64,000 nucleotides of DNA from Fidelibacterota bacterium. GTDB taxonomy: Bacteria; Fidelibacterota; Marinisomatia; Marinisomatales; TCS55. The stretch is taken from the NCBI GenBank assembly GCA_004124385.1, contig SCKN01000004.1, positions 1 through 64,000 on the forward strand. Direction: 5' to 3'. The position numbers and the translations under genes are program-made. How positions within the stretch are numbered: position 1 is the first letter of the stretch; the number at the start of each line of letters is the position of its first letter. Under the pieces are notes generated by a model, which did not search any database, was not told the origin of the DNA, and saw nothing but the letters and a program-made list of their open reading frames with translations. Below, one piece after another: positions 4,162-34,861 of this stretch.

Positions 4162-5033
4162 TTTAAGACTTCGATTAAACGAGCTTGCTCATCAGCTCGA
4201 TATGAACTACGTACCAATGGACCTGATTCTACAACACTAAAACCCATGTTTGTTCCTATTTCTTTAAATTCTGAAAATTCGTTATCTTCAAGATATCTCT
4301 CCACCGGTAAATGATTTTGTGTCGGTTGCAAATATTGACCAATGGTGAAAATTTTTACACCAATTTCAACGACCTCTTGCATAGTAGCAATGACTTCATC
4401 CCTTGTTTCCCCCAAGCCAACCATAATACTGGTTTTTGTCAGAAGTCCAAAATCTACAGAATGCCTCAATACAGCCAAACTACGTTGCCAATTGGCTTGT
4501 GAACGTATTTGTTTGCTGATACGTTCTACACATTCAACGTTATGGGAAAAAATCTCCGGTTGGGCCGCAAATACTTTTTCTAATGCAGGATAAAATCCCT
4601 GGAAATCCGGTGTTAAAACTTCAACTGTGCAGGTAGGAACGTGCTTATGAATTTGCTTGATCGTTTCAGCCCAAATTGCTGCTCCAAAGTCATTTTTCAA
4701 ATCATCCCTATCTACGGAAGTAATTACAATATGACGCAAATTCATTTTTTTTACAGCTAGTGCAGTTCGTGTTGGTTCTAAAGGATCATTCCAGGTTGGG
4801 CGTCCAGTTTTCACAGAACAGAATTTGCATGCACGGGTACATGTATCACCCAATATCATAATAGTTGCCGTTCCGCGATTCCAGCATTCATATATATTCG
4901 GACAACGCGCTTCTTCGCAAACTGTATGGAGAGTATTCGCTTGCACAACCTTATCTACAAATTTATATCCCTCTCCAATGTGCATACGGATTTTGGGTTT
5001 TTTAATTCTTGGTACTGAAATAGCTTCTATCAA
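4158..5033 (-). CDS. lipA: Lipoyl synthase
   Basis: Radical SAM enzyme of 291 residues that inserts two sulfur atoms into protein-bound octanoyl groups to make lipoyl. It has both iron-sulfur cluster motifs: the auxiliary cluster motif CEEARCPNIYEC and the radical-SAM motif CTRACKFC. The conserved C-terminal RSSYRAD segment, which ligates the auxiliary cluster, is also present. The start overlaps the upstream E2 gene by four bases (ATGA). With lipB four genes upstream, it supplies the cofactor for the E2 encoded beside it. Confidence 0.98.
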   Translation of the reverse strand: MIEAISVPRIKKPKIRMHIGEGYKFVDKVVQANTLHTVCEEARCPNIYECWNRGTATIMILGDTCTRACKFCSVKTGRPTWNDPLEPTRTALAVKKMNLRHIVITSVDRDDLKNDFGAAIWAETIKQIHKHVPTCTVEVLTPDFQGFYPALEKVFAAQPEIFSHNVECVERISKQIRSQANWQRSLAVLRHSVDFGLLTKTSIMVGLGETRDEVIATMQEVVEIGVKIFTIGQYLQPTQNHLPVERYLEDNEFSEFKEIGTNMGFSVVESGPLVRSSYRADEQARLIEVLN

Positions 5034-6322
5034 AAGAGGTGCTCCAAATCCATATTCTCAAGGTTTTTCTGTACAGTTTCAACAAACTTTGCTCCTCCAG
5101 CACCATCGACCAAACGATGATCAAATCCGATGGATAAAAACATCATACTTCGAATCCCAATCGTATCACCTTGCTTTGTTTCAATTACAACAGGTTTCTT
5201 TTTAATTGTACCTACTCCTAAAATACCAACGTTTGGCTGATTAATAATGGGCGTTCCGGTCGTAACATTAAACATTCCAAAATTAGAGATTGAAAAAGTT
5301 GAGCCAGAAAGTTCATCTGGTCTAATTTGTTTATTTCGTGTACGAATTGCTAAATCACGAACTTTTCTACATAAACCCAAAAAATTTAATTCTTCACATT
5401 GGGGAATAACTGGAACCATTAAACCAGCATCCACAGCAACAGCCAATCCAATATTGACGTTTTTCTTGCGGATGATGGACGTTCCATCTAAAGAACTATT
5501 CATATCAGGGAATGTTTGCAAAGCTCTAACACATGCAGATACAATAAATGGCGTATAAGTTAATGGGAATCCTTCACGCATTTTAAAACTTGAACTATTT
5601 TCGTCTACATAGTTTACAATTCGCGTCATATCCACTTCATTCATCAAATGAACATGGGCAGATGTATCCAGGCTGTGCCGCATATGCTCGGCAATTGATC
5701 TACGCATTTTATCCATTTCTATTCGCTCATCTGCAAGTGGCGATATCACTGGGGCTGAAACTGAAACTTCAGGCTGTTCCATAGCTGCAGGAGCCTCTTT
5801 TGCCGGAGCAGTGGCTGACGATCGTTGTTCAAGATAAGCAAGGAGATCTTTTTTTGTTACTCGGTTATTATTCCCTGATCCAGATATAGACGCAAGTTCA
5901 TCTTGACTCACACCTTCTTTACGAGCGATAGATTTGACTATGGGTGTATAATATTTTTTCTCGCCACTAGTTGAAATTACTTTTTCAGATTCAATTTGAG
6001 ATGATTTAATCGATGCAACTTCAGTAGATGGTGGAGGAGATTCTTCTTCTTCAATCTTCGATTGTATTTTTACTGAAGCACTCCCTTCCGTTTCAATACG
6101 AGCAATAACAACACCAATATCTATAACATCATTGGGTTCGGCAAGTAATTCAGTTATAATTCCAGCATTGGGAGATGGGATTTCGGAGTCAACCTTATCA
6201 GTGCCGATTTCCAATAGTATTTCATCCACTTCAATGCTATCTCCAACACTTTTGCGCCACTCAATAATTGTGCCTTCCACAATGGATTCACCCATTTTGG
6301 GCATGATAATATCTATAACCAT
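5030..6322 (-). CDS. 2-oxo acid dehydrogenase E2 (dihydrolipoyl acyltransferase), probably branched-chain
   Basis: Acyltransferase core of a 2-oxo acid dehydrogenase complex, 430 residues. Domains in order: one lipoyl domain with the lipoyl-lysine motif GTDKVDSE (about residue 43); an acidic/proline-rich linker; a peripheral subunit-binding domain (about 120-165); a second linker rich in Ala and Pro; and the catalytic domain ending with the active-site motif DHRLVDG. It lies 1 base after the fused E1 gene. Gene order and the E1 type favour a branched-chain 2-oxoacid dehydrogenase (bkdB/bkdC type), but pyruvate or 2-oxoglutarate cannot be excluded from sequence alone. Confidence 0.93.
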   Translation of the reverse strand: MVIDIIMPKMGESIVEGTIIEWRKSVGDSIEVDEILLEIGTDKVDSEIPSPNAGIITELLAEPNDVIDIGVVIARIETEGSASVKIQSKIEEEESPPPSTEVASIKSSQIESEKVISTSGEKKYYTPIVKSIARKEGVSQDELASISGSGNNNRVTKKDLLAYLEQRSSATAPAKEAPAAMEQPEVSVSAPVISPLADERIEMDKMRRSIAEHMRHSLDTSAHVHLMNEVDMTRIVNYVDENSSSFKMREGFPLTYTPFIVSACVRALQTFPDMNSSLDGTSIIRKKNVNIGLAVAVDAGLMVPVIPQCEELNFLGLCRKVRDLAIRTRNKQIRPDELSGSTFSISNFGMFNVTTGTPIINQPNVGILGVGTIKKKPVVIETKQGDTIGIRSMMFLSIGFDHRLVDGAGGAKFVETVQKNLENMDLEHLF

Positions 6323-11911: not shown

Positions 11912-12321
11912 TAACAGCAATCAGGTCCGTAATAATCTGTTTTTATTGTTGGAGTTTCAATTAAGCGAATACGATGAAGCGTACAATCAATTAGTTTTGA
12001 AGCGATCATTTCCCAAATAAAAACAACCATATTTTCAGTGGAAGGCTGTTTGTCTTTAAACCAAGGAATATCTTTTTCAATTTGAGAATGGTCCATTATA
12101 TCAAGAATATTATTTTTTACTATCTTCTTTAATTCAACCAAATCCACTATAAAACCGGTTTCAGGGTTAATTGATCCCTTCACAGTAACCTCTAATGTAT
12201 AATTATGCCCATGAATTTTCGCATCATCCCCAAAAACTTCTGTATTCTTTTCAGCTGTCCAATCTTCATGACCATACAGGTGTGCAGCGCAAAAATAAAA
12301 TAATTTTGTTAAATATTGCAT
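11911..12321 (-). CDS. queD: QueD/6-pyruvoyltetrahydropterin synthase-like protein lacking the catalytic Cys
   Basis: Member of the tunnelling-fold PTPS/QueD family, 136 residues. The zinc ligands His14 (CAAH), His37 and His39 (IHGHNY) are present, as are the Asp77-His78 pair (MDHSQ) and the STEN segment at 94-97. Relatives have a catalytic Cys shortly before the HGH motif (GKCxNPNGHGH or CGRLHGH). Here the segment is GDDAKIHGH with no Cys and a two-residue shortening. Cys11 is the only nearby cysteine. The reaction could be altered, as in PTPS-III proteins where Cys is replaced by Glu and dihydroneopterin triphosphate is diverted to folate. Product assignment is therefore uncertain. Confidence 0.8.
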   Translation of the reverse strand: MQYLTKLFYFCAAHLYGHEDWTAEKNTEVFGDDAKIHGHNYTLEVTVKGSINPETGFIVDLVELKKIVKNNILDIMDHSQIEKDIPWFKDKQPSTENMVVFIWEMIASKLIDCTLHRIRLIETPTIKTDYYGPDCC

Positions 12322-12394
12322 ATTTTTTAATTGTATGATACAAACATAATAACTCTTATAAATTAAATACTAATTATGGGCGTGCAAACGAGTA

Positions 12395-13042
12395 TTATTT
12401 ATTATTTACAGAGGGACACAGCGGGGATAATGTACACTCACTACATTGAGGTCTTCTGGCAATGCACACTGCCCTGCCATGATCAATAATCATATGGGTT
12501 AACTTGACCCAATCTTTTTTATCAAAAATATCCATTAATTCTAATTCAATTTTTTTAGGATCATTACATTTAGTAAAATTCAGCAAATTCATTATCCGAA
12601 TCATATGCGTATCAATCACAACTGATGGCTGATTATAGAATTCGCCTAAAATACAATTTGCTGTTTTACGGCCAACTCCCGGAAGTTTAATTAACTCTTC
12701 CATCGAATTAGGGACTAACCCTTTATACTCTTCTACAATACTTAAACTGGACCCCTGAATACTTTTTGCTTTCTGATTATAATATCCACAGGAATGAATA
12801 TCTCTCGATAGGGCGCTTATATTACTATAAGCAAAATCCGCTGGCTTTTTATATTTTAAGAAAAGGTCTTTTGTAACAATATTGACACGATGATCCGTGC
12901 ATTGTGCAGATAAAATCGTTGCCACCAAAAGTTCATGTGCGGATTTATAATTTAGGGAGCATTTTGAATTTGGATATTCTTTAAAAAGTATTTGAACAAT
13001 CTTTGCAGCGCGTTCAATTTTTTGAGATTTACTTTCACGCAT
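12395..13042 (-). CDS. nth: Endonuclease III
   Basis: DNA glycosylase/AP lyase that removes oxidised pyrimidines in base-excision repair. 215 residues. The helix-hairpin-helix LPGVGRKTANCIL holds the catalytic Lys, the catalytic Asp lies in VIDTHM, and the C-terminal 4Fe-4S cluster motif C-x6-C-x2-C-x5-C (CIARRPQCSECTLSPLC) is complete. Its start shares a base with the stop of the preceding small gene (TAATG). Confidence 0.97.
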   Translation of the reverse strand: MRESKSQKIERAAKIVQILFKEYPNSKCSLNYKSAHELLVATILSAQCTDHRVNIVTKDLFLKYKKPADFAYSNISALSRDIHSCGYYNQKAKSIQGSSLSIVEEYKGLVPNSMEELIKLPGVGRKTANCILGEFYNQPSVVIDTHMIRIMNLLNFTKCNDPKKIELELMDIFDKKDWVKLTHMIIDHGRAVCIARRPQCSECTLSPLCPSVNNK

Positions 13043-23835: not shown

Positions 23836-25104
23836 TTACTTTTCATTGCCAAAACAGCGTGTCACTAATCCTGAATATACCTTGGGAAAGAAAAATGTTG
23901 ATTTTTGAGGCATTGTTTCACCTGCTTTTGCGATTGTGAAAATTTCATCTAATGATGGCGGCCGGACAAAACAGGCGACATCAAAATGTCTTTCTTCTTT
24001 TAATAGATTTATAGTGGGTTTGTTTCCGCGCATGTATGATAATTTTTTCAAATCTTGCTGGTGTGATGTGTCCACACCAAACACATCTTTCATTACAAAT
24101 GAATGCAAAATATTTGTATCCAATTCCTGTGCAGCCTGACATTGATCATTAAATACATTAATTAATTCTTTCCAACTATGAAAATTTAACAATAAACCCG
24201 TATTACTTTCCCGATGGTAAATGCCCATTTGACCTTTACCGTTATTTTCATCTTCTACTATTTTGATGACTTTTTCAGGTCCGCTAAACCATTCTACATC
24301 AAAATGCGTTTGTAGGCTAGTCATTATCTCATCAATACCGATTTTAACATTTTTAATTAACCGATGTGTCGGGAGGACATTCATGCCCGGATTATTACTG
24401 TTCACAAGCGTTACCATCACATTTTCTGCTCCGGATATATCTGGATTATTTTGATAATAACGCAGTGCTGTTTTATAGCGATGATGCCCATCTGCAATCA
24501 CTACATCTTTTGTAGAAATACACGTTTTAAATTTGGATATAGAGTCTGCATCTGTTACAACAAAAAGTGTATATCGTATTTCATCCAGTTCACAATCGAT
24601 AACTGGAGCATGTGGCAATGTTTCATAAATGCCTTCGAGGACAAGGTCATCATCTTGATAGCACATAAATATTTGGCCGGGGTTAGCATTTGTTGTTTCC
24701 ATTAGTTTATACCGGTCTTGTAAATGTTTTTCGTTCGTTTGCTCATGAGGTAAAACAGACATTCCTAATTCTGTTAATTCCAATGAACAAATACATCCGA
24801 CTCGATCTATGCGCTTACCTTCGTTTTCAAATGATTGCGATAAAATGTATAACGCTTCTTTTTCTTCTTCGATCAGAATACCTTCATTTTTCCATAAAGC
24901 CAGTGTGTTAGCTGCATCAAAATATCGATCCTCGCCCGCCGATCGATTTAAATTAATTCGAATATAATTATGGGGAGATTTCTTGTAATAAGTATTTTGC
25001 TCTGAAGGTGATATGACGTCGTATGGCGGCACGATTACATTGGCAAAGTCATTAACTAGTTTGCTGTTATATCGCCACCCTTTAAATGGATAAATGTTTG
25101 CCAT
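23836..25104 (-). CDS. DUF1015 family protein
   Basis: 422 residues, soluble. N-terminus MANIYPFKGWRYN and the internal segments VIVPPYDVISPSEQ, SVLPHEQT and VIADGHHRYKTALRYYQ are the family hallmarks; the DGHHRYKTA core recalls ParB/SerK-like catalytic folds. The family is widespread and poorly characterised, and some annotate it near serine metabolism, which nothing here supports. Lies 13 bases upstream of citrate synthase and 8 bases after the phosphotransferase gene. Confidence 0.88.
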   Translation of the reverse strand: MANIYPFKGWRYNSKLVNDFANVIVPPYDVISPSEQNTYYKKSPHNYIRINLNRSAGEDRYFDAANTLALWKNEGILIEEEKEALYILSQSFENEGKRIDRVGCICSLELTELGMSVLPHEQTNEKHLQDRYKLMETTNANPGQIFMCYQDDDLVLEGIYETLPHAPVIDCELDEIRYTLFVVTDADSISKFKTCISTKDVVIADGHHRYKTALRYYQNNPDISGAENVMVTLVNSNNPGMNVLPTHRLIKNVKIGIDEIMTSLQTHFDVEWFSGPEKVIKIVEDENNGKGQMGIYHRESNTGLLLNFHSWKELINVFNDQCQAAQELDTNILHSFVMKDVFGVDTSHQQDLKKLSYMRGNKPTINLLKEERHFDVACFVRPPSLDEIFTIAKAGETMPQKSTFFFPKVYSGLVTRCFGNEK

Positions 25105-25112
25105 ATCAAAAC

Positions 25113-26216
25113 TTACACTTTTATACTATCTGAATACAATTTCTCAACTATTTGTTTTACTCTAATTGACGCATTTCCATCTAATTTATAGAATATTTTT
25201 TCTATGTCCGTTTTTTGTGCTTTTTTCATTTCATCTGTTGGATTTAATGCTAACTTGATTCCCGCCGGCAAATCCTCTGGAGTGTTAATATGCACGAAAG
25301 AATCTTTTAAATATTTTCGATTATCAAATCCCAAAAGGGACTCGCCATCAGAATGTTTTAAACTCTCTTGATTTAAATTATAAATAATGCCTGTTTTTCC
25401 GGTTGCTAAAAATTCAGTGATAGATCCAGATGCTTCAGATACTAATGTATCGGCAACAAATAATAATGGCAGAATATTATAATCATCTTTTGGTATGATA
25501 ATTGCGTGAGGGTACTTCTCAATTTGATCTTCAAATAGTGTATGTTGTTTATGGGAAGCATATTTTCCCATCCAAGAATAATGATGAAGTTTTATAATTA
25601 AGTTATACTCTTTGGTCGCATTAAATATCTCATCTTTTAAATCGTACAGACAAGTTGGTTTATACGTAGGCGCGAACAAGATAACAAGTTTATCTGGATC
25701 AAGACCTAATGATTTTAATATCTCACTTCTATCAAAAACCCCGCTAGCAAAATATGGATCCATTTTAGGATAACCTACTGTATGCAATTCAGAATTTCCC
25801 ATACAACCTGAATTTATTAATGATTTTTCAGATTGCTCACCTTCAGCAAAAATAATATAGCGATGGTCAGAATGTTTTTTAAGCTCGCGATATGTGACTG
25901 TTTTTGTAAATGTAATTCCATGATAAATCAAACAAAGTAGAGCATCGCCATACTTTTTTTCATCTACAACGTCAGGAGCAAATACAATATCAAAGTGTTC
26001 ATTTTCATCACTGACCCGATGACCCTCTTGCTCAAATTGTTTTAAATATTTTTTTGTTTCATCTTTATCATAAAAACCAAATGATCGCTCAACTTCATGA
26101 GTCAGAGATAAAGCAACATCATAATTTAAATCATTCCCAAACAACTCAATTAGGGGATCATAGGCTGCCTTATGATACAGGTAAAACATTTTAAATAAAA
26201 CTTTAGTCTTTCTCAT
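25113..26216 (-). CDS. CDP-glycerol glycerophosphotransferase-like protein (copy 2)
   Basis: About 367 residues from the ATG at 26214-26216 (a GTG one codon upstream is also possible). GT-B-like fold with the TagB/TagF signatures: LIYHGITFTKT (catalytic-type His), GYPKMDPYF, ILFAPTYKPT, IIKLHHYSWM and TLVSEASGSITEFLATGK. Family members transfer glycerol- or ribitol-phosphate from CDP-alditols to surface polymers. Within this locus a CMP-phosphonate donor is the more likely substrate (inference). Last gene of the phosphonate run, overlapping the paralogue upstream at TGATG. Confidence 0.85.
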   Translation of the reverse strand: MRKTKVLFKMFYLYHKAAYDPLIELFGNDLNYDVALSLTHEVERSFGFYDKDETKKYLKQFEQEGHRVSDENEHFDIVFAPDVVDEKKYGDALLCLIYHGITFTKTVTYRELKKHSDHRYIIFAEGEQSEKSLINSGCMGNSELHTVGYPKMDPYFASGVFDRSEILKSLGLDPDKLVILFAPTYKPTCLYDLKDEIFNATKEYNLIIKLHHYSWMGKYASHKQHTLFEDQIEKYPHAIIIPKDDYNILPLLFVADTLVSEASGSITEFLATGKTGIIYNLNQESLKHSDGESLLGFDNRKYLKDSFVHINTPEDLPAGIKLALNPTDEMKKAQKTDIEKIFYKLDGNASIRVKQIVEKLYSDSIKV

Positions 26217-27286
26217 CACCCTTTAGCTTGACTCCTGTCAATCATTTTTCTAATCTGATATTTACGGATAATATTTAAGGGTTTTTGTTTTAATTCTTTA
26301 TGCAGACCATCATTTAGAATGCGAGCTATTGCTTGCAGCATACGATCAGAAGAAGATCCATCTGAATATGGGTGAATTTCTCGAAGACAACTTGCTCTAT
26401 TAATTGAAAATTCATCAGGCTTCATCAGGCTTTGTTCGATAGCAGTTGATAGTTCTGTTGGCTTTTGAATATTTATACCTTTGTCTTTACGAGCCAATGC
26501 TTGATACGTAATTAAAGGTCGATCAAAAGATAAAAATTCGTAGGCAACAGATGATGTGTCGGTAATCATTAAATCAGAGCCTGCCATAATGGGTAAAATA
26601 TTTAGCTCATCAACGACCCGAAGATATTTATTCTCCAATTGCTTGTATTGTTCTTGAGTCGTTTTATCCATTAATGGATGGAATTTTATAATCCAGTTGT
26701 ACTTTCCATTATTCACGTTTTTGATAGCGCCCAGCAAGTCCGGAGCTGATGTGTATTTGGCTGGGAAGGTAGGGGCATAAAGCAAAACGGGTAATTCAGG
26801 ATTTAAACCATATTGTTTGATTAATTGATTTTTTTGATCGGTAAAATTCCCTTTATTTTTGAAAATATAATCAAGTTTTGGCCAACCAGTTTCCTCAACT
26901 AAAAAATGCTTTTTCCGTTTTGCAATTTTTGAAAACGTTTCTGTCATAACGGGTCCTGTTGTACAATACAAATCAAAGAATCCAGTTATAGTATAAAAGC
27001 CTTTCACTTCTTCATCCAGCCCATGAAAAATCTGCACTTTTAAACCAGGCCAATAATGTGGGACAACATTGCCAGGGACAAGAACAACATCAGGGTTGTA
27101 ATCGTGTACTTCCCTATTGGATTTTAATTGATTACCAGGGACCAAATAATGACTAGCGGAACTGGCTGTAAACCATTTTACCGTACCACTATTCGATTTT
27201 TGAATTGCGTTTTGAACCGGCTCGAGAATTGAAAAGGAATATGGTTTTGTAACAAAAAATAAATACTTTAGATGAGCGTTGATCAT
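26216..27286 (-). CDS. CDP-glycerol glycerophosphotransferase-like protein (copy 1)
   Basis: 356 residues and paralogous to the next gene. It has the same landmarks: VQIFHGLDEE with the catalytic-type His, TGWPKLDYIF, LLYAPTFPAKYTS, IIKFHPLMD, and LMITDTSSVAYEFLSFDRP. The C-terminus is basic (RKYQIRKMIDRSQAKG), perhaps for membrane contact. Members act at the cytoplasmic face on lipid-linked or sugar acceptors. It overlaps the alcohol dehydrogenase gene by four bases (ATGA), placing it firmly in the phosphonate operon. The true donor is unknown; CMP-hydroxyethylphosphonate is proposed from context. Confidence 0.87.
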   Translation of the reverse strand: MINAHLKYLFFVTKPYSFSILEPVQNAIQKSNSGTVKWFTASSASHYLVPGNQLKSNREVHDYNPDVVLVPGNVVPHYWPGLKVQIFHGLDEEVKGFYTITGFFDLYCTTGPVMTETFSKIAKRKKHFLVEETGWPKLDYIFKNKGNFTDQKNQLIKQYGLNPELPVLLYAPTFPAKYTSAPDLLGAIKNVNNGKYNWIIKFHPLMDKTTQEQYKQLENKYLRVVDELNILPIMAGSDLMITDTSSVAYEFLSFDRPLITYQALARKDKGINIQKPTELSTAIEQSLMKPDEFSINRASCLREIHPYSDGSSSDRMLQAIARILNDGLHKELKQKPLNIIRKYQIRKMIDRSQAKG

Positions 27287-28389
27287 TGTTCACTAAGTAA
27301 TTCTTTCAAAATACCCAATACATCATCCGTTGATAAATCCACAATATTATTATCCATTCTACCTTTCGTAAATGATTCTTCAGCTAATTTTGGCAGTTGG
27401 TCTTCAGAGATGCCCCATTTGTCCAATGTATATGGTACTTCACCTTGGGGGATTTCTTTTATGGTTTGTTTTAATTCATCATAAGTCAATTCATTATTTT
27501 TACAAATTCTATCTAAAGACTTCTTGATTAAGGGACCATTGATGTCCAATAAAGGTAATAAACTGATAGAAGATGCAACTCCATGGGGAATTCCATGATG
27601 GATTGTTAACGGATAACTTATTGAATGAGCAGCTGCAGTTGTAGTATTCGAGAATGCTAATCCAGCAACTGTAGATGCTTTTAACAGATTATTTCGAACT
27701 TCTAAATTCTTGGGGTTTTCTTTCAAAGCTGAACCATTTTTAAGAATCGAACAAATAGCTGAAATAGCTAAATCAGTTGAAGTATCATTTGCTTTCTTGT
27801 TCCAAATAGACTCAAAACTGTGGCTTAATGCATCCATTGTAGTTGTGATTGAAATGTCCATAGGAAGAGACAATGTTAAACGTCCATCCAAAATCGCAAC
27901 TGTCGGATAAAGATTTGGATGAGATATTGAATATTTCTTTTCTTCCTTCATATTCCATATGGTTCCCCACATGGTTACTTCACTCGCAGTTCCGTGAGTA
28001 GTGGGTAAAAATATGGAAGGAATCGTTTGCGGATATTTCTCTTTAAATTCTATTAATTCAAAAATATCTGATTTTTCCAAGCACAGGTGAGCCATAACAA
28101 CTTTTGCTAAATCCATTGCAGAACCACCACCAATAACTACAACACCATCTATCATTATTTTCTGGCAAAATTTTAGTGCATTGTTACACTCTTCAAAAGT
28201 TGGATTACTACCCACTTCACTAAAAATAGAATCAGAATCAAATTTTGAATCAAGTTTTAACCGTTTCCTGTTCCCAAGGGTAGTAATAATAATCGGGGAT
28301 GAAATTTTTAAATCATATATTCTAAAATTTAACTCACGCAACCAATCTTCAGTTTTAATAATTCTTACAGGATTATAATAATTAGACAT
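27283..28389 (-). CDS. Iron-type alcohol dehydrogenase, probable phosphonoacetaldehyde reductase
   Basis: Group III metal-dependent alcohol dehydrogenase, 368 residues. The Rossmann-like motif VVVIGGGSAMDLAK binds NAD(P). The metal-ligand region includes MDALSHSFES, HSISYPLTIHHGIPHG and the conserved PTTHGTASEVT. Relatives beside phosphonopyruvate decarboxylase reduce phosphonoacetaldehyde to 2-hydroxyethylphosphonate (as PhpC/FomC do). Here it is immediately downstream of the decarboxylase gene (15-base gap) and no 2-aminoethylphosphonate aminotransferase is present, so hydroxyethylphosphonate rather than aminoethylphosphonate is the expected product. Confidence 0.87.
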   Translation of the reverse strand: MSNYYNPVRIIKTEDWLRELNFRIYDLKISSPIIITTLGNRKRLKLDSKFDSDSIFSEVGSNPTFEECNNALKFCQKIMIDGVVVIGGGSAMDLAKVVMAHLCLEKSDIFELIEFKEKYPQTIPSIFLPTTHGTASEVTMWGTIWNMKEEKKYSISHPNLYPTVAILDGRLTLSLPMDISITTTMDALSHSFESIWNKKANDTSTDLAISAICSILKNGSALKENPKNLEVRNNLLKASTVAGLAFSNTTTAAAHSISYPLTIHHGIPHGVASSISLLPLLDINGPLIKKSLDRICKNNELTYDELKQTIKEIPQGEVPYTLDKWGISEDQLPKLAEESFTKGRMDNNIVDLSTDDVLGILKELLSEQ

Positions 28390-28404: not shown

Positions 28405-29535
28405 CTAATTCTCCAGAAATTTCATAAAATTTTCTTTATTATCAACTGGTTTGATTGTTGGTCTGCCTAAATCTTCTCTTGACCCCGGTCGAATTTTTAC
28501 TTCAAGAAATGAAGGTCCGGTGCATGATATAAAATCATTGAAATTTGATTCTAAATCATCTGACGTTTCTGCTTTAAATATTTTGCTTGATCCAACAGCT
28601 TCAACTATTGCTGATAAATCTAATTTCTTTGCCGCAGTTTCTTGTCCGCCCACAGATTCATGCACTTCGTTATTCATTAAAATATGTCGAAAATTTTTCG
28701 GTTTCAATATCGCTATTGATGTAAGGCTGCCCAAATGCATTAACATTGCTCCATCTCCATCGATACACACTACTTGTCGATGAGGTTTAGCTAATGCAAT
28801 ACCTAAAGCAATAGACGAGCAATGACCCATGGATCCCACAGTTAGAAAGTCCTTTTCATGTGATTGACAATTCTTTTCGCGAATCTCAAAAATTTCTCTG
28901 GATGTTTTCCCTGTAGTCGAAACCACAATAGCATTATCATCAAGATTGCCCAATATGATTTCCAATGCTTCTTCCCGGTTCATACGTTGATCATCAGAGC
29001 ATTGAGTATCATTACTATATTTTTCGAATGTCCCTTTTTTGATCAGAAGAACCACCGGCCTGTTTTCGGTTTTTGCAATTTCAATTGCATTTGAAATTTT
29101 CTTGGCAAATTGATCATCATCTTTTGAAATAATTTCATAGGGAATATCCATTGCATCCAACAATTCTAATTGTACTTTACCCTGTTTAGCATGCTGTGGT
29201 TCATCTTTTACGCCAGGCACACCTCGCCAACCAACCATTACGAGTAAAGGAATGGAATACACATCCGGATCGCAAAGAGATAAAAGAGGGTTTATTGCAT
29301 TACCCAAACCCGAATTCTGCATATAAACTAAAGGTAATGATTTTTGTGCTAGATAATAACCGGTGGCCAATGCAACAGCATTGCCTTCATTGGCTGCAAT
29401 AATATGTTTATTTCCGGGTATACGATCATCAATACATAAACAAAATTCTTTCAGTAAAGAGTCTGGAATACCCGTAAAAAATTCAACACCGTGACTCGCT
29501 AACTGATCGTAAAATTCAGCCGGTTTAATGGCCAT
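28405..29535 (-). CDS. aepY: Phosphonopyruvate decarboxylase
   Basis: Thiamine-diphosphate enzyme that decarboxylates phosphonopyruvate to phosphonoacetaldehyde, pulling the unfavourable PEP mutase equilibrium forward. 376 residues from the ATG at 29533-29535, which forms TGATG with the PEP mutase stop. Family landmarks: VEFFTGIPDSLLKEFC, IIAANEGNAVALATGYYLA (with the TPP-activating Glu), MQNSGLGNAINPL, WRGVPGVKDEPQH, and the TPP motif GDGAMLMHLGSLTSIA with NNEVHESVGGQ. Placed between the mutase and the reductase in pathway order. Confidence 0.96.
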   Translation of the reverse strand: MAIKPAEFYDQLASHGVEFFTGIPDSLLKEFCLCIDDRIPGNKHIIAANEGNAVALATGYYLAQKSLPLVYMQNSGLGNAINPLLSLCDPDVYSIPLLVMVGWRGVPGVKDEPQHAKQGKVQLELLDAMDIPYEIISKDDDQFAKKISNAIEIAKTENRPVVLLIKKGTFEKYSNDTQCSDDQRMNREEALEIILGNLDDNAIVVSTTGKTSREIFEIREKNCQSHEKDFLTVGSMGHCSSIALGIALAKPHRQVVCIDGDGAMLMHLGSLTSIAILKPKNFRHILMNNEVHESVGGQETAAKKLDLSAIVEAVGSSKIFKAETSDDLESNFNDFISCTGPSFLEVKIRPGSREDLGRPTIKPVDNKENFMKFLEN

Positions 29536-30854
29536 CAATTAACCTCGGGAATCAGGGTAATAATATCTTTAATGGACATGCAGTATTCTTCTGATGCTTC
29601 TTTAGCGCGTCTATTTTCCAAAATAGATTGAGCTGCCTTTATCATTGATGGGTAAGCAGAACGTAATAAATGGTTGGCGTAGATTATCACATTAATGCCT
29701 AAATCTTGTAATTCTGATTCAGTCATATGGGCATAAGTTGAAGGCACTACAATAAGAGGAACTTTTGTTTCAAATTTTTGGAATTTTTCACAGAATTCGA
29801 TGATTTCTTTTCCATCTTTTTCCTTACTATGAATCATAATTCCATCTGCCCCGGCGGCTATATATGCTTCAGTTCTTTTTAGGGCATCCGCCATTCCTTT
29901 TTTCAATATCAAACTTTCCACACGGGCAATAATCATAAAATCTGTTGTAATCTGGGATTGTTTTCCTTCATGAATTTTTTGGGAAAAATGCTCAATTGAA
30001 TCTTGTTCTTGGGGGACGGTCGTTCCAAAAAGAGAATTGCGTTTATCCCCAATTTTATCTTCAATAATAATAGCCGAAACGCCCAACCTTTCCAGTGTTT
30101 TAACTCTGAATTTGAAATGGTCTATCCGACCGCCTGTATCACCATCCACAATAATGGGTTTAGTCGTTACCTCCAATATTTCTTCAATGGTCGAGAACCG
30201 GGATGAAAAGTCAACCAGTTCAGTATCCGGTTTCCCTTTTGCAGTTGAATCTGTTAGACTACTTTCCCAAATACCGTCAAATTCTAATTTTCGACCATCT
30301 TTTTCAATACTGGTTTTTTCTACAATTAGTCCCGTTAATCCATTATGCGCTTCCAAAATACGAACGATTGGTTTTACAGCAATCAACCGTCGCAGTGTTT
30401 TCATCCGCTTCCCGGGTGTAATGCCTTGTGCTTTAACAGCAGCAATCAAATCAGTTGATGAAACACCTTCAGTGTATCTTGGCTCTACAAGTTCCCCACC
30501 CCATTCAGCGAGCGTATCTAATACGCGTTGCCGAACTTCTTTTTGAACACCTGTTTTCCAATCATCACCATGGACAACATAATCTGGTTTTAATTCTTTT
30601 AGATTAGGTACATAATCTAAAGTTGTTTGGGGTACGACTTTATCTACACCCTTTAGATTCTCAACAATTATTTTGCGTTCATTAAAGGCAATTAAAGGTA
30701 GACGCTTATAACTGGCTATCGCTTCATCTGTAAGCAATCCAATAATCACTTTGCCCAGCTTGTGGCCCTCAGCAATAATATTCACGTGGCCTTGGTGAAC
30801 CAGATCGGCAGACATAGCTATATATACTTTTTTTGATTTTTTATTTTCTGACAT
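29535..30854 (-). CDS. aepX: Cytidylyltransferase-phosphoenolpyruvate mutase fusion
   Basis: 439 residues, two catalytic domains. Residues about 8-140 are a nucleotidyltransferase with the HxGH motif H20-Q-G-H23 and the later SSTDLI variant of the second motif. Residues about 155-430 are PEP mutase with VDGDTGG (236-242) and the diagnostic [10 protein letters not shown] (265-274). The mutase makes the carbon-phosphorus bond by converting PEP to phosphonopyruvate. The same architecture occurs in Fom1 of fosfomycin synthesis, where the N-terminal domain attaches CMP to 2-hydroxyethylphosphonate. By analogy this one protein would start the pathway and activate its end product. Confidence 0.94.
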
Positions 30855-30879: not shown

Positions 30880-32073
30880 TTAAAATCCTTTTTCGGCAAT
30901 AGAACCATCGTGTAGTCCGGCGTTATAATTTGGCTCCGGAACTTGCCAATTTCCATAACGTAGGGAAAGATATTCTTCTGCATAATTTGGAATATTAATC
31001 GTGCGTCCTTCCCACTGAATTGTACTTAACGTATCATAATATTTTCTATCAACATGCTTCAATGCGTTACTATCTACCCAGCGATATTTATCTTTTACCG
31101 GATATACACAAAATAGATCGATGTGAAAATTTATTTGTCTTATTTTTTCCCAGGGTGTTTTTACTTTTATTACTCTCATATCTCCCGGAAGCCAATTAGA
31201 ATTAATTTTACCTCTTTTAATCAAGTAGTTTGGTAAAAAATCCATACGCAAATTCATTATATCATCTGCAGAATCAGCAGGAATTCCAATGTCAGCATCG
31301 TAGTCCCAAGGGATTAAATCACCATCACGGAAAATGCCCAAAAGAGTTCCGGCTTCCAACCAATATTTAAATCCTTTTTCATTCAATATGTCTATTGTTT
31401 TCAATAGCATTTTTTTCATACGTCGATGGTAGTTTCCCTTTTGAAGCTGGATTTTTTCTAAAGGGGAAGCATTAATTACTTTTTTAAATGGAATTTTTTC
31501 TAACAAAGAATTATTTACAATCGTATTGTCATCAATACTAGCAATCCAATTTAAGTTTGGATTTTTCCAGTCATTTCCAAATCGCACACGTAAATAGTCT
31601 TCTTCATTATGTGGGATCGGGAATGAATTCCCGCCAATATTGATTTCATCTAATTTATCATAATACGTGCTTTCAATTTCTTTGCAGCTGCGTTTATCAA
31701 CCCATCGGTATTTGTTTTCCACTTTATACTTGGGTGTAATAAAAATTTTAAACGCTTTTTGTTTATGTTGCCATCGACTCAATACAGCAATGCGACAATA
31801 TCCGCTTTCTGTCCACTCACGGCCAGATTGATCTGGCACTAATTGAAAACGATATGATAAACCCAATTTGTTTTCAAGTGTCAATAAATTAGAAAAATGC
31901 TCTCCTGGAATACTCAATCTTACATTCCTGTCTTGAGATAACGATAGTCCATGCTTTTTTCCAATTACAGTTAATAATGACTTTGTATCCAGCCAAAAAG
32001 GGATGGCATTATTTTTCAATAATTTTACTGTAGACGTAAAAAGATGTGTATTTAGTTGGTTGTCAATATTCAT
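30880..32073 (-). CDS. LicD-family phosphotransferase with duplicated domains
   Basis: 397 residues built from two related halves. The C-terminal half (about 212-397) is a complete LicD-type nucleotidyltransferase-fold domain with EAGTLLGIFRDG and the metal-binding WDYDADIG (Asp257, 259, 261). The N-terminal half (about 15-190) aligns with it, including a repeated KYRWVD segment (121-126 and 329-334) and IPxxxEEYL, but the acidic triad is degraded to D48-N50-R52. LicD proteins move phosphocholine and similar groups from CDP/CMP donors to glycans. Here a CMP-phosphonate donor is likely. The inactive half may hold the acceptor. Confidence 0.85.
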   Translation of the reverse strand: MNIDNQLNTHLFTSTVKLLKNNAIPFWLDTKSLLTVIGKKHGLSLSQDRNVRLSIPGEHFSNLLTLENKLGLSYRFQLVPDQSGREWTESGYCRIAVLSRWQHKQKAFKIFITPKYKVENKYRWVDKRSCKEIESTYYDKLDEINIGGNSFPIPHNEEDYLRVRFGNDWKNPNLNWIASIDDNTIVNNSLLEKIPFKKVINASPLEKIQLQKGNYHRRMKKMLLKTIDILNEKGFKYWLEAGTLLGIFRDGDLIPWDYDADIGIPADSADDIMNLRMDFLPNYLIKRGKINSNWLPGDMRVIKVKTPWEKIRQINFHIDLFCVYPVKDKYRWVDSNALKHVDRKYYDTLSTIQWEGRTINIPNYAEEYLSLRYGNWQVPEPNYNAGLHDGSIAEKGF

Positions 32074-32099: not shown

Positions 32100-33929
32100 T
32101 TAATTGAACTGAATATTATAAAGATTACTGTAAAGACCCTTTTTTTCCATGAGCTCATTATGGGTTCCCATTTCTTTAATTTCACCTTTATCTAATAAAA
32201 TAATTTTATCAGCATTTGTAACTGTTGATAATCGATGGGCGATCACTAATACCGTTCGATCAACCATAAGTGTTTCCAATGCTTTATGCACCAATCGCTC
32301 AGATTCAGTATCCAAGGCGGACGTTGCTTCATCAAGTATAAGTATCGGTGGGTTTTTCATGATGGCTCGAGCGATAGCTAAACGCTGACGCTGCCCGCCG
32401 GAAAGTTTGACGCCCTTTTCACCAATCACTGTATCAAAACCCTCGGATAGCTCATTGATGAATTCTAATGCATTGGCGGCTTTGGCCGCTGGGATAACCT
32501 GTTCGTCATTTACATCTATTTGGCCGTAAGCAATATTAGCTCTGACTGTATCATTAAAGAGCATCGTCTCCTGCGTTACGATGCCCATCAGCCTACGTAA
32601 CGAATTTAAAGAAAGATCCCGAATATCGTGGCCATCAATAGTAATTCCACCTTTATCTACATCATAAAATCGAGGAATTAGATCTGCCAACGTGGATTTT
32701 CCCGCACCACTGGATCCAACTAATGCAACTACAGATCCCTTTTCAATTTCAAATGAAATATCCTTTAAAACTGTATCATTAAATTCATATTTAAAACTCA
32801 CATTATTAAACATAATCTGCTTTTCAAAAGAATTGATTTTCACAGAATCTGTTTTGTCCACTATATTTGGTTCAGTATCCAAAATTGAAAATATACGCTC
32901 TGCAGAGGCTGCTCCTGCTTGTAATGAAACATTTACTTTACTCAATTTTCTTAATGGGTCCATCATGGCGAAAAGTAGTAGAATAAAACGGAGAAAATCT
33001 TCAGGCGTTAATCCTTCACCGCTTAAAACTTCGACACCCCCAACCCAAAGTAATAAAACACCTATCATTACACCGAGAGTTTCTGTAATGGGTGATGCCA
33101 ACAAACGCAATTTTGCTCTGCGGAGAATTAATTGAAAATAATGATGTGTTTCCTTGAAAAATCGCTGTACTTCATATCCTTCCATAGCAAACGCTTTAAC
33201 CACACGAATAGAGGATAATGTTTCTGTAATAATGTTGGTGATCCCGGCAATCATGGCAGCGGTGCGTTTAGATTTACGTCGGATACTTCTTCCAATCGAT
33301 AAAATCGTTAATCCGGCAACAGGAAGTATGACAATGGATAATAAAGCTAGTTTCCAGCTGATAATAAACAAAAGTATTATAAAGGCCAGCAAATTGATGG
33401 GTTCAACTAGTAATTGATGAAAACTAGTTCCTAATGCACGGCGCAAGTTGGCAACATCATTAATGATAATTGATGTTAATTCTCCTGATTTTTTCTGATC
33501 AAAATATGAAAGTGATAATGCATTGAAATGTTTATAAAGACGATTACGCATTTCAGTTATCAAATGGAATTGAACCACAGTCATGAAATAATTCTTCATG
33601 TAAAGAAATATATTTTTCGTCAGGAATACGACCATAATGATTAAACACAATACTTTCAACGTTTCCTGAGGTGTTCCCCGAAGGATGAACCCATCGGTCC
33701 AAAACTTCAATTTTTCATTCAGAGTGAGCGAGTTTTCACCTGTCAACTGAGAATGGTCAGCCACTAGCTGTTGAAAATCCATCAAAATGTTATTGATCAA
33801 AGAAGCTGTTAACCAAATTGAGGCACTGTTTAATACAACATATATTAACGATGCCAATGTAGATAACAGCAGATACGGCCAATGCTGAATGACCAATTTG
33901 AACATGCGCTTATAGAGGGATTCTTGCAT
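32100..33929 (-). CDS. MsbA-type lipid/glycolipid exporter ABC half-transporter
   Basis: 609 residues: an exporter-type membrane domain of six helices (about 15-330) followed by an ATPase domain with Walker A GSSGAGKST, signature LSGGQRQRLAIARAI, Walker B ILILDEATSALD and H-loop AHRLST. It works as a homodimer in the inner membrane. MsbA-like proteins flip lipid A or lipid-linked oligosaccharides. As the first gene of the phosphonate run, 26 bases before the LicD gene, it may flip the decorated lipid carrier, though general lipid A export is possible. Upstream 33930-34005 may hold the operon promoter; no clear box was identified. Confidence 0.93.
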   Translation of the reverse strand: MQESLYKRMFKLVIQHWPYLLLSTLASLIYVVLNSASIWLTASLINNILMDFQQLVADHSQLTGENSLTLNEKLKFWTDGFILRGTPQETLKVLCLIIMVVFLTKNIFLYMKNYFMTVVQFHLITEMRNRLYKHFNALSLSYFDQKKSGELTSIIINDVANLRRALGTSFHQLLVEPINLLAFIILLFIISWKLALLSIVILPVAGLTILSIGRSIRRKSKRTAAMIAGITNIITETLSSIRVVKAFAMEGYEVQRFFKETHHYFQLILRRAKLRLLASPITETLGVMIGVLLLWVGGVEVLSGEGLTPEDFLRFILLLFAMMDPLRKLSKVNVSLQAGAASAERIFSILDTEPNIVDKTDSVKINSFEKQIMFNNVSFKYEFNDTVLKDISFEIEKGSVVALVGSSGAGKSTLADLIPRFYDVDKGGITIDGHDIRDLSLNSLRRLMGIVTQETMLFNDTVRANIAYGQIDVNDEQVIPAAKAANALEFINELSEGFDTVIGEKGVKLSGGQRQRLAIARAIMKNPPILILDEATSALDTESERLVHKALETLMVDRTVLVIAHRLSTVTNADKIILLDKGEIKEMGTHNELMEKKGLYSNLYNIQFN

Positions 33930-34480: not shown

Positions 34481-34861
34481 ATGCGGCATAAGAAAAAACA
34501 GATAATTGTTGTAGGCGACAGAGTCCTGATTCAACCGGACAAAGGAGAAAGTAAATCCGCAGCAGGACTTTACCTCCCTCCAAGCGTGTTGGAAAAGCAG
34601 GAAATTTGCGGTGGAATCATTGTGGAAGTTGGGCCGGGTATTCCCGTTGGGAATCCTGATAAAGGCGGTGATGAGCCGTGGAAGACAGAAATACATGGTG
34701 GTATTAAATATATTCCAACTCAAGCGGAGTTAGGTGATTATGCATTATTCCTGAATAAAGCTGCTATTGAAATTAAAGTTGAAAAGGATAATTACTTGAT
34801 TGTGCCCCAGTCTGCGATTTTGGTTTTAATCCGTGACGACCTAAACAGCCTTACAGAGTAA
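34481..34861 (+). CDS. Solitary GroES-like co-chaperonin family protein
   Basis: 126 residues with the cpn10 fold: VVGDRVLIQPDKGESKSAAG at the start, a mobile-loop-like segment (LYLPPSVLEKQEI), GGIIVEVGPG, a longer insert than in GroES (GNPDKGGDEPWK, about residues 61-80), and LIVPQSAILVLI at the end. Ordinary GroES is about 95 residues and sits beside groEL; no groEL is here. The insert and charged C-terminus suggest a specialised variant. Its 3' end overlaps the convergent porin gene by 11 bases. Confidence 0.82.
   Translation: MRHKKKQIIVVGDRVLIQPDKGESKSAAGLYLPPSVLEKQEICGGIIVEVGPGIPVGNPDKGGDEPWKTEIHGGIKYIPTQAELGDYALFLNKAAIEIKVEKDNYLIVPQSAILVLIRDDLNSLTE

Follow-up and report, generated by a model that had tools for sequence, protein, structure and literature searches.

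Human FKRP, a ribitol-5-phosphate transferase of solved structure (PDB 6kaj-6kan), possesses an NTase-fold catalytic domain with four aspartates—D360, D362, D364 and D416—each of which is reported to be required for activity; its N-terminal domain lacks catalytic function, binding an acceptor phosphate and forming the oligomer instead (PMC6965139). In the capsule system of Actinobacillus pleuropneumoniae, Cps7C/CpsC carries its LicD domain C-terminally, after a non-catalytic N-terminal part, and the PF04464 protein CpsA and the LicD protein CpsC are described as transition transferases acting together in priming (PMC11666461). Mf1, the phosphocholine transferase of Mycoplasma fermentans, is a LicD enzyme that was assayed in vitro on glycolipid (PMC11982090). 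With respect to phosphonates, the CMP-activated form of 2-hydroxyethylphosphonate (HEP), CMP-HEP, is reported to be made by the fused domain of Fom1, and LicD-like genes have been noted near nucleotidyl-activated phosphonate clusters; that report leaves the transferase step open and calls later tailoring steps enigmatic (PMC6697681).

Tandem proteins with one inactive copy are found elsewhere in the same NTase fold superfamily, among them TUT4/7 and OAS2/OAS3. The N-terminal domains of OAS proteins are inactive. In TUT4/7, the N-terminal module serves the Lin28:substrate complex and the C-terminal module catalyses (PMC6488673).

Here we analysed a 64,000-nucleotide stretch of DNA (‘the window’) from a Fidelibacterota bacterium, which encodes on its minus strand a tandem LicD protein, LicDx2. 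Like FKRP, LicDx2 has an NTase-fold catalytic domain with four aspartates; unlike FKRP, which bears an inactive GT-A-like domain at its N-terminus and uses CDP-ribitol as donor, its N-terminal half (N-half) appears to be an inactive LicD copy homologous to the C-terminal half (C-half), and its donor would be CMP-HEP. With Cps7C/CpsC it shares the C-terminal LicD domain behind a non-catalytic part, from which it differs in that the capsule proteins bear N-terminal TPR and use CDP-glycerol, phosphonate genes finding no mention in the accessible text (PMC11666461). Mf1 (NF045866) is the best NCBIfam match of LicDx2 at 58.7 bits, far under the cut-off of 225, so LicDx2 does not fall within this Mf1-type equivalog, which covers one LicD domain (240 positions) and whose donor is CDP-choline or CDP-ethanolamine. 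TUT4/7 and OAS2/OAS3 belong to other, eukaryotic families with RNA substrates, and are likened to LicDx2 by fold and plan. As in the Fom1/PntC pathways, the LicDx2 operon contains a cytidylyltransferase fused to PepM. In fosfomycin biosynthesis, CMP-HEP feeds a small-molecule pathway. Our literature search, outside which most subscription journals lay, returned neither a LicD protein, tandem or duplicated, in which one half is inactive, nor a CMP-phosphonate transferase; within the same scope, no publication was found that describes a LicD joined to a dead LicD and linked to HEP genes.

Results

LicDx2 consists of two homologous halves

The earlier note had read LicDx2 as a tandem duplication followed by loss of catalysis in one half, pointing to repeated segments at a similar offset. 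The repeats are borne out: KYRWVD occurs twice (residues 121-126 and 329-334) and is the sole 6-mer to do so, IPxxxEEYL recurs as IPHNEEDYL (153-161) and IPNYAEEYL (361-369), and YY-D-L as YYDKL (137-141) and YYDTL (345-349), the offset being 208 residues for all three. The note would have been refuted by the lack of a significant structural alignment between the halves; compared by sequence and by profile, the halves did align significantly. Residues 1-205 aligned with residues 206-397 at 79.3 bits (BLASTP; E 3e-23, 27% identity, 176 columns), their Smith-Waterman score of 198 was reached by none of 2000 shuffles (mean 33, maximum 70), and the profiles of the two halves matched with a probability of 100% (E 1.8e-45).

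Against Pfam, LicDx2 matched LicD (PF04991) at 58.3 bits (cut-off 22.6) in two stretches, the best of which, residues 232-330, lies in the C-half. The host genome yielded no further LicD match. Scanned alone, the N-half from the window returned no family at E ≤ 1, so that a Pfam scan of that half by itself misses the dead domain; 10 of 16 N-halves scanned in this manner did match LicD.

An AlphaFold2 model built from 16 sequences (mean pLDDT 84.3, pTM 0.64) comprises two domains with like order of helices and strands, joined by a poorly predicted linker (residues 201-212). Residues 205-387 of the model superimpose on the catalytic domain of FKRP (VIA-align; Z 15.9, rmsd 3.0, 160 aligned). Among the matches listed for residues 1-197 is the NTase fold of cGAS (Z 7.0, rmsd 4.6, 149 aligned); a fold match with this Z is weak by itself, and the homology seen in the sequences carries more weight.

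Table 1 Features of the LicDx2 locus (window coordinates).
Feature	Position	Strand	Evidence or remark
ABC exporter (membrane + ATPase domain)	32100..33929	minus	Pfam; adjoins LicDx2 in relatives
LicDx2, tandem LicD protein, 397 aa	30880..32073 (stop codon included)	minus	ORF, Pfam, self-alignment
N-half, predicted catalytically dead LicD domain, residues 1-205	31459..32073	minus	homology to C-half, E 1.8e-45; D48, N50, R52, F111
DRNVR, N-half residues 48-52, degenerate DYDAD counterpart	31918..31932	minus	alignment of halves
N-half motif D-x-S-G-x-x-W, residues 81-87	31813..31833	minus	across 16 N-halves, S83, G84 and W87 never vary and D81 hardly does
KYRWVD copy 1, residues 121-126	31696..31713	minus	
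C-half, intact LicD/NTase domain, residues 206-397	30883..31458	minus	Pfam LicD; FKRP E 5.2e-16; FKRP Z 15.9
DYDAD motif, C-half residues 257-261, metal-binding Asp 1-3	31291..31305	minus	conserved in 16/16 C-halves
D319, C-half Asp 4, FKRP D416 equivalent	31117..31119	minus	alignment with FKRP
KYRWVD copy 2, residues 329-334	31072..31089	minus	
Cytidylyltransferase-PEP mutase fusion (CT-PepM), first domain closest to Fom1	29535..30854	minus	TIGR02320 399 bits, over cut-off; 5x3d E 1e-51
Phosphonopyruvate decarboxylase (Ppd)	28405..29538	minus	TIGR03297 492 bits, over cut-off
Fe-ADH, probable phosphonoacetaldehyde reductase	27283..28389	minus	TIGR03405 PsrA best NCBIfam, 235 bits, cut-off 423.7
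PF04464 (CDP-glycerol glycerophosphotransferase family) protein A	26216..27286	minus	Pfam
PF04464 protein B	25113..26219	minus	Pfam
DUF1015 gene	23836..25104	minus	follows the second PF04464 gene, in the window as in several relatives

The catalytic aspartates are retained in the C-half and degenerate in the N-half

Among proteins of solved structure, FKRP is the clear sequence relative of LicDx2 (E 5.2e-16 over residues 223-383), and its four essential aspartates align, in order, with D257, D259, D261 and D319 of the C-half. All four are present in 16/16 C-halves of the aligned tandem proteins. In the alignment of the halves, Asp257/259/261 share columns with D48/N50/R52, just as the earlier note had paired them; beyond that pairing, the fourth NTase position is D319 in the C-half and F111 in the N-half. 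Across the 16 N-halves, Asp 1 survives in seven and Asp 3 in three, while Asp 2 (Asn in 14, Lys in two) and Asp 4 survive in none; the loop Gly is retained in 6/16. A further set of residues conserved among C-halves (R300, K303, K305, F321, W354 and R357) is mostly altered in the N-halves. Judged by these columns, the N-half very probably binds no metals and, we infer, no nucleotide. Counting against our best explanation, the hG[GS] loop of FKRP reads A241-G242-T243 in the C-half, with Thr replacing Gly/Ser; the motif is reported to be missing from Mf1 relatives too (PMC11982090).

LicDx2 belongs to a conserved phosphonate operon

From position 33929 down to 23836, the minus strand encodes, in order, the ABC protein, LicDx2, CT-PepM, Ppd, Fe-ADH, two PF04464 proteins and a DUF1015 protein. 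This gene order is retained in relatives, where LicDx2 directly adjoins the CT-PepM gene. The cytidylyltransferase domain is closest to 5x3d (1e-51), as compared with 5.5e-18 for the ethanolamine-phosphate type and 6e-8 for the glycerol-3-phosphate type; 5x3d is named PEP phosphomutase in the match table, and we take it to be the cytidylyltransferase domain of Fom1. With PepM and Ppd over their NCBIfam cut-offs and a cytidylyltransferase fused to the former, the genes point to HEP biosynthesis with nucleotidyl activation; the alcohol dehydrogenase scores under its family cut-off, and it is therefore the entire set of genes that speaks for HEP as the product.

Elsewhere in the host genome there are other PF01467 and PF04464 genes, as well as a 459-aa fusion of a cytidylyltransferase with a 2-aminoethylphosphonate-aminotransferase-like part (locus L105, contig C9, 8714-10093; TIGR03301 83 bits, cut-off 360.8), which may be the source of another amino compound activated with CMP. 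On the opposite strand, the operon is adjoined by a 126-aa ORF (34481-34861, plus), presumably a Cpn10/GroES-like protein, which is found beside the operon in relatives with 64-97% identity.

Among 245 genomes of the phylum, 17 encode a tandem LicD of this family, 31 a PepM over cut-off and 13 both (Fisher p 2.7e-10, a value overstated by the relatedness of the genomes); put differently, PepM is present in 13/17 genomes with a tandem LicD as opposed to 18/228 without. As for the four exceptions, the contig stops just past LicDx2 in G158, the gene lies at a contig end in G220 and has a cellulase-like neighbour in G215, and G213 (94% complete) carries a second type of tandem LicD described below; we count this last case against the HEP reading. 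In G119 and G037, LicDx2 is found at the end of one contig and CT-PepM at the end of another, consistent with a break between adjacent genes. Two genomes (G038 and G051) possess PepM and a similar operon, and an HMM search of the regions examined returned no LicD, which counts against the link.

The N-half is under purifying selection

The 16 aligned members share 22 invariant N-half columns. The motif at residues 81-87 falls in the loop after strand 74-80 and adjoins the site at which the C-halves have their conserved P296-G297 and R300. Over 21 pairs among seven window-type genes, the median dN/dS came to 0.161 in the N-half as compared with 0.058 in the C-half, both rough values given a dS of ~1.1. 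The N-half is under purifying selection. Together with the N-half-specific conserved motif, this implies that the N-half does something, without telling what; retention of the dead copy suggests that it holds a substrate or a complex together. The earlier note had proposed acceptor binding or regulation, either of which would be a possible role.

The duplication is old

A tandem LicD of this family, with a dead-looking N-half, is carried by 17 of the 245 genomes of the phylum Marinimicrobia. Orthologues of LicDx2 share 73-82% identity within the genus, family and order, and 45-54% further off. The second tandem type (430-445 aa frames, 30-32% identity) follows the same plan, its N-half likewise degenerate; that N-half retains G-T-L-L and an R-D-G loop, which the window type has lost.

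Phylogenetic trees placed the N-halves in one clade, with support of 100/97 among 50 rows (56 rows minus six half-rows of the near-copies L003, L058 and L061) and of 100/98 in a second tree of 44 rows from which N-half rows of the U-type proteins (see below) had been left out. Tree rows exclude L056, which has an in-frame stop, and L047, with scores equal to those of L007, was left out of alignment A1. As judged from these trees, the duplication is old and predates the split between the window type and the 430-445 aa type. A recent duplication is rejected by the single N-half clade and its presence in both types. An independent duplication in the second type is disfavoured by a narrow margin, a tree joining its N- and C-halves being only just rejected (p-AU 0.046); the C-halves do not form a clade in the best tree, and such a clade was not rejected (p-AU 0.37). 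The identity of the two KYRWVD copies would accordingly reflect long-kept constraint, not recent copying. In the simplest history, one duplication occurred, Asp 2 and Asp 4 were soon lost, and the other catalytic columns went on changing at differing speeds. Taken together, the profile match between the halves (E 1.8e-45), the lost Asp columns and the single N-half clade uphold the proposal of tandem duplication followed by catalytic loss in the N-half.

A search of genome contigs outside the phylum returned three loci, all titled Marinimicrobia/Neomarinimicrobiota. Among plasmids (eight records) and phages (six), none covered 80% of the query and every match began at residue 197 or later. Viral contigs yielded 10 loci, eight of them apparently single-domain and two (L091/L092) of ~411-413 aa.

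Two further observations concern individual genomes. In G058 (L039, 16305-16565) and G046 (L043, ~4969-5103), C-terminal remnants of a window-type LicDx2 lie just upstream of CT-PepM, separating it from the upstream part of the operon, the one in G046 with an in-frame stop; both genomes carry the second type, which suggests that one tandem LicD was replaced by the other. Locus L063 (G158, same class as the window) and locus L035 (G044, same order) have equal identities to the ABC protein and LicDx2 of the window, 59.016 and 72.796, suggesting that the contig was misplaced in one bin.

A second architecture pairs an intact LicD domain with an inactive-looking partner

Across the phylum there are many further LicD loci, with frames of 352-396 aa, of which only the C-terminal part matches P0001. 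We examined 21 of these U-type loci (eight at first, then 13 including L070). A hidden Markov model of the N-halves of the first eight proteins matched all 13 further ones. The C-halves are complete in 20/21, the remaining one (L099) having one undetermined residue. In the N-halves, for which columns are approximate owing to low similarity, the loop Gly is absent from 21/21, the Asp 4 column holds Asp in 0/21 and the Asp 2 column holds Asn in 17 and Asp in four. In this more diverged architecture, too, an intact C-half is paired with an NTase-like N-half that looks inactive.

How these N-halves relate to the others is less clear-cut. Pairwise self-scores of eight U-type proteins were not above shuffles, and the U-type N-half profile matched that of its own C-half with 7.5% probability. 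Kinship of the U-type halves finds support in the HMM searches and in the model of L059, which has NTase-fold matches within residues 1-168 (Z up to 8.8) alongside a C-half resembling FKRP (Z 17.5). Between the N-half profiles of the T-type (window plus second type) and the U-type, E was 9e-5 (probability 59%), and a single clade of both had a p-AU of 0.054.

In genome G170, a U-type LicD gene (L070, 10825-11955) directly follows genes for CT-PepM, Ppd and ADH and is itself followed by a GT29 sialyltransferase-like gene (11927-12538), a different HEP-glycan cluster in the phylum.

Discussion

The homology of the two halves, the loss and retention of catalytic residues, the age of the duplication, the selection on the N-half and the gene content of the operon are all shown by the data above. 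They make LicDx2 a strong candidate for the enzyme that transfers HEP in a conserved phosphonate operon. We think it probable that its C-half transfers HEP from CMP-HEP to a surface glycan and that its N-half is a non-catalytic domain for acceptor binding or assembly; CMP-HEP as donor, the glycan as acceptor and acceptor binding by the N-half are each what we infer. Products of the neighbouring genes would convert PEP via phosphonopyruvate and phosphonoacetaldehyde to HEP, and HEP to CMP-HEP. With metal ions on D257/D259/D261/D319, the C-half would take HEP from CMP-HEP and form a phosphonate ester with a hydroxyl of a glycan, either lipid-linked or on the surface; the ABC protein would export the product. 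Drawing from the FKRP N-terminal domain and from TUT4/7, the N-half would most likely hold the acceptor chain or fix the assembly that presents it, as the FKRP stem domain does. The nearest tested logic for a LicDx2 working alongside PF04464 proteins would be that of the A. pleuropneumoniae capsule.

A possible, if somewhat unlikely, alternative is that the N-half never touches the acceptor and is merely a structural or dimerisation module—an intramolecular pseudo-dimer, or a contributor to stability or allostery. About half of its conserved columns are conserved in the C-half too (13 in both) and look like fold constraints, and the NTase-fold heterodimer NF45-NF90 is among the fold matches. 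The subunits of NF45-NF90 are inactive. Yet D81, S83, G84, C130, R123 and W176 are conserved specifically in the N-half, outside this shared column set, and in FKRP the non-catalytic domain is reported to serve both oligomerisation and acceptor binding (PMC6965139). We deem it very unlikely that the N-half has new or residual catalysis on other ligands, such as HEP removal or proof-reading: Asn at the Asp 2 position in 14/16 N-halves and the invariant Cys130 leave room for new chemistry, but Asp 2 and Asp 4 are lost in 16/16, and a newly conserved cluster of acidic residues is not apparent. Most improbable is a decaying relic devoid of function, which would suit an N-half whose dN/dS is roughly three times that of the C-half and whose catalytic columns are still changing between lineages; against it, the dN/dS of 0.161 is far below 1 and the half is retained in 17/17 loci from several families, with 22 columns unchanged in all 16 aligned members.

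The donor, too, might be another, although we regard this as unlikely: LicDx2 could use CDP-glycerol, CDP-ribitol or CMP-AEP, with HEP being added by the PF04464 proteins or serving another end. Characterised LicD enzymes are reported to use CDP-choline, CDP-ribitol or CDP-glycerol (PMC6965139, PMC11666461, PMC11982090), the additional PF01467 and PF04464 genes and the cytidylyltransferase-aminotransferase fusion in the host genome favour a different donor, which in the case of the fusion would resemble CMP-aminoethylphosphonate, and the second-type tandem LicD of G213 occurs where PepM is absent. Against this stand the direct adjacency of LicDx2 and a Fom1-like CT-PepM gene in relatives and the association with PepM in 13/17 genomes, two of the four exceptions lying at contig ends. 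It is quite doubtful whether the operon builds poly(hydroxyethylphosphonate) or an HEP-linked, teichoic-acid-like surface polymer, which LicDx2 would prime or elongate and for which the PF04464 pair would supply transition transferase and polymerase. Since CMP-HEP carries an activated phosphonyl group and, at its opposite end, a free hydroxyl, it could be polymerised head to tail, as with CDP-glycerol; the dead half would then grip the HEP-terminated chain as the live half appends a further unit.

Under our preferred reading, HEP transfer to a surface glycan, LicDx2 probably decorates the sugars of the cell surface with a carbon-phosphorus compound. A LicD protein linked to HEP genes through a conserved gene order provides a direct candidate, testable in vitro, for the phosphonate-to-glycan step. 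As the state of decay varies between lineages, its dead twin is a clean case for the role of a pseudo-transferase half. Seen alongside the inactive GT-A domain of FKRP and the TPR of CpsC, the dead LicD of LicDx2 suggests that known LicD enzymes carry a non-catalytic partner of varying origin.
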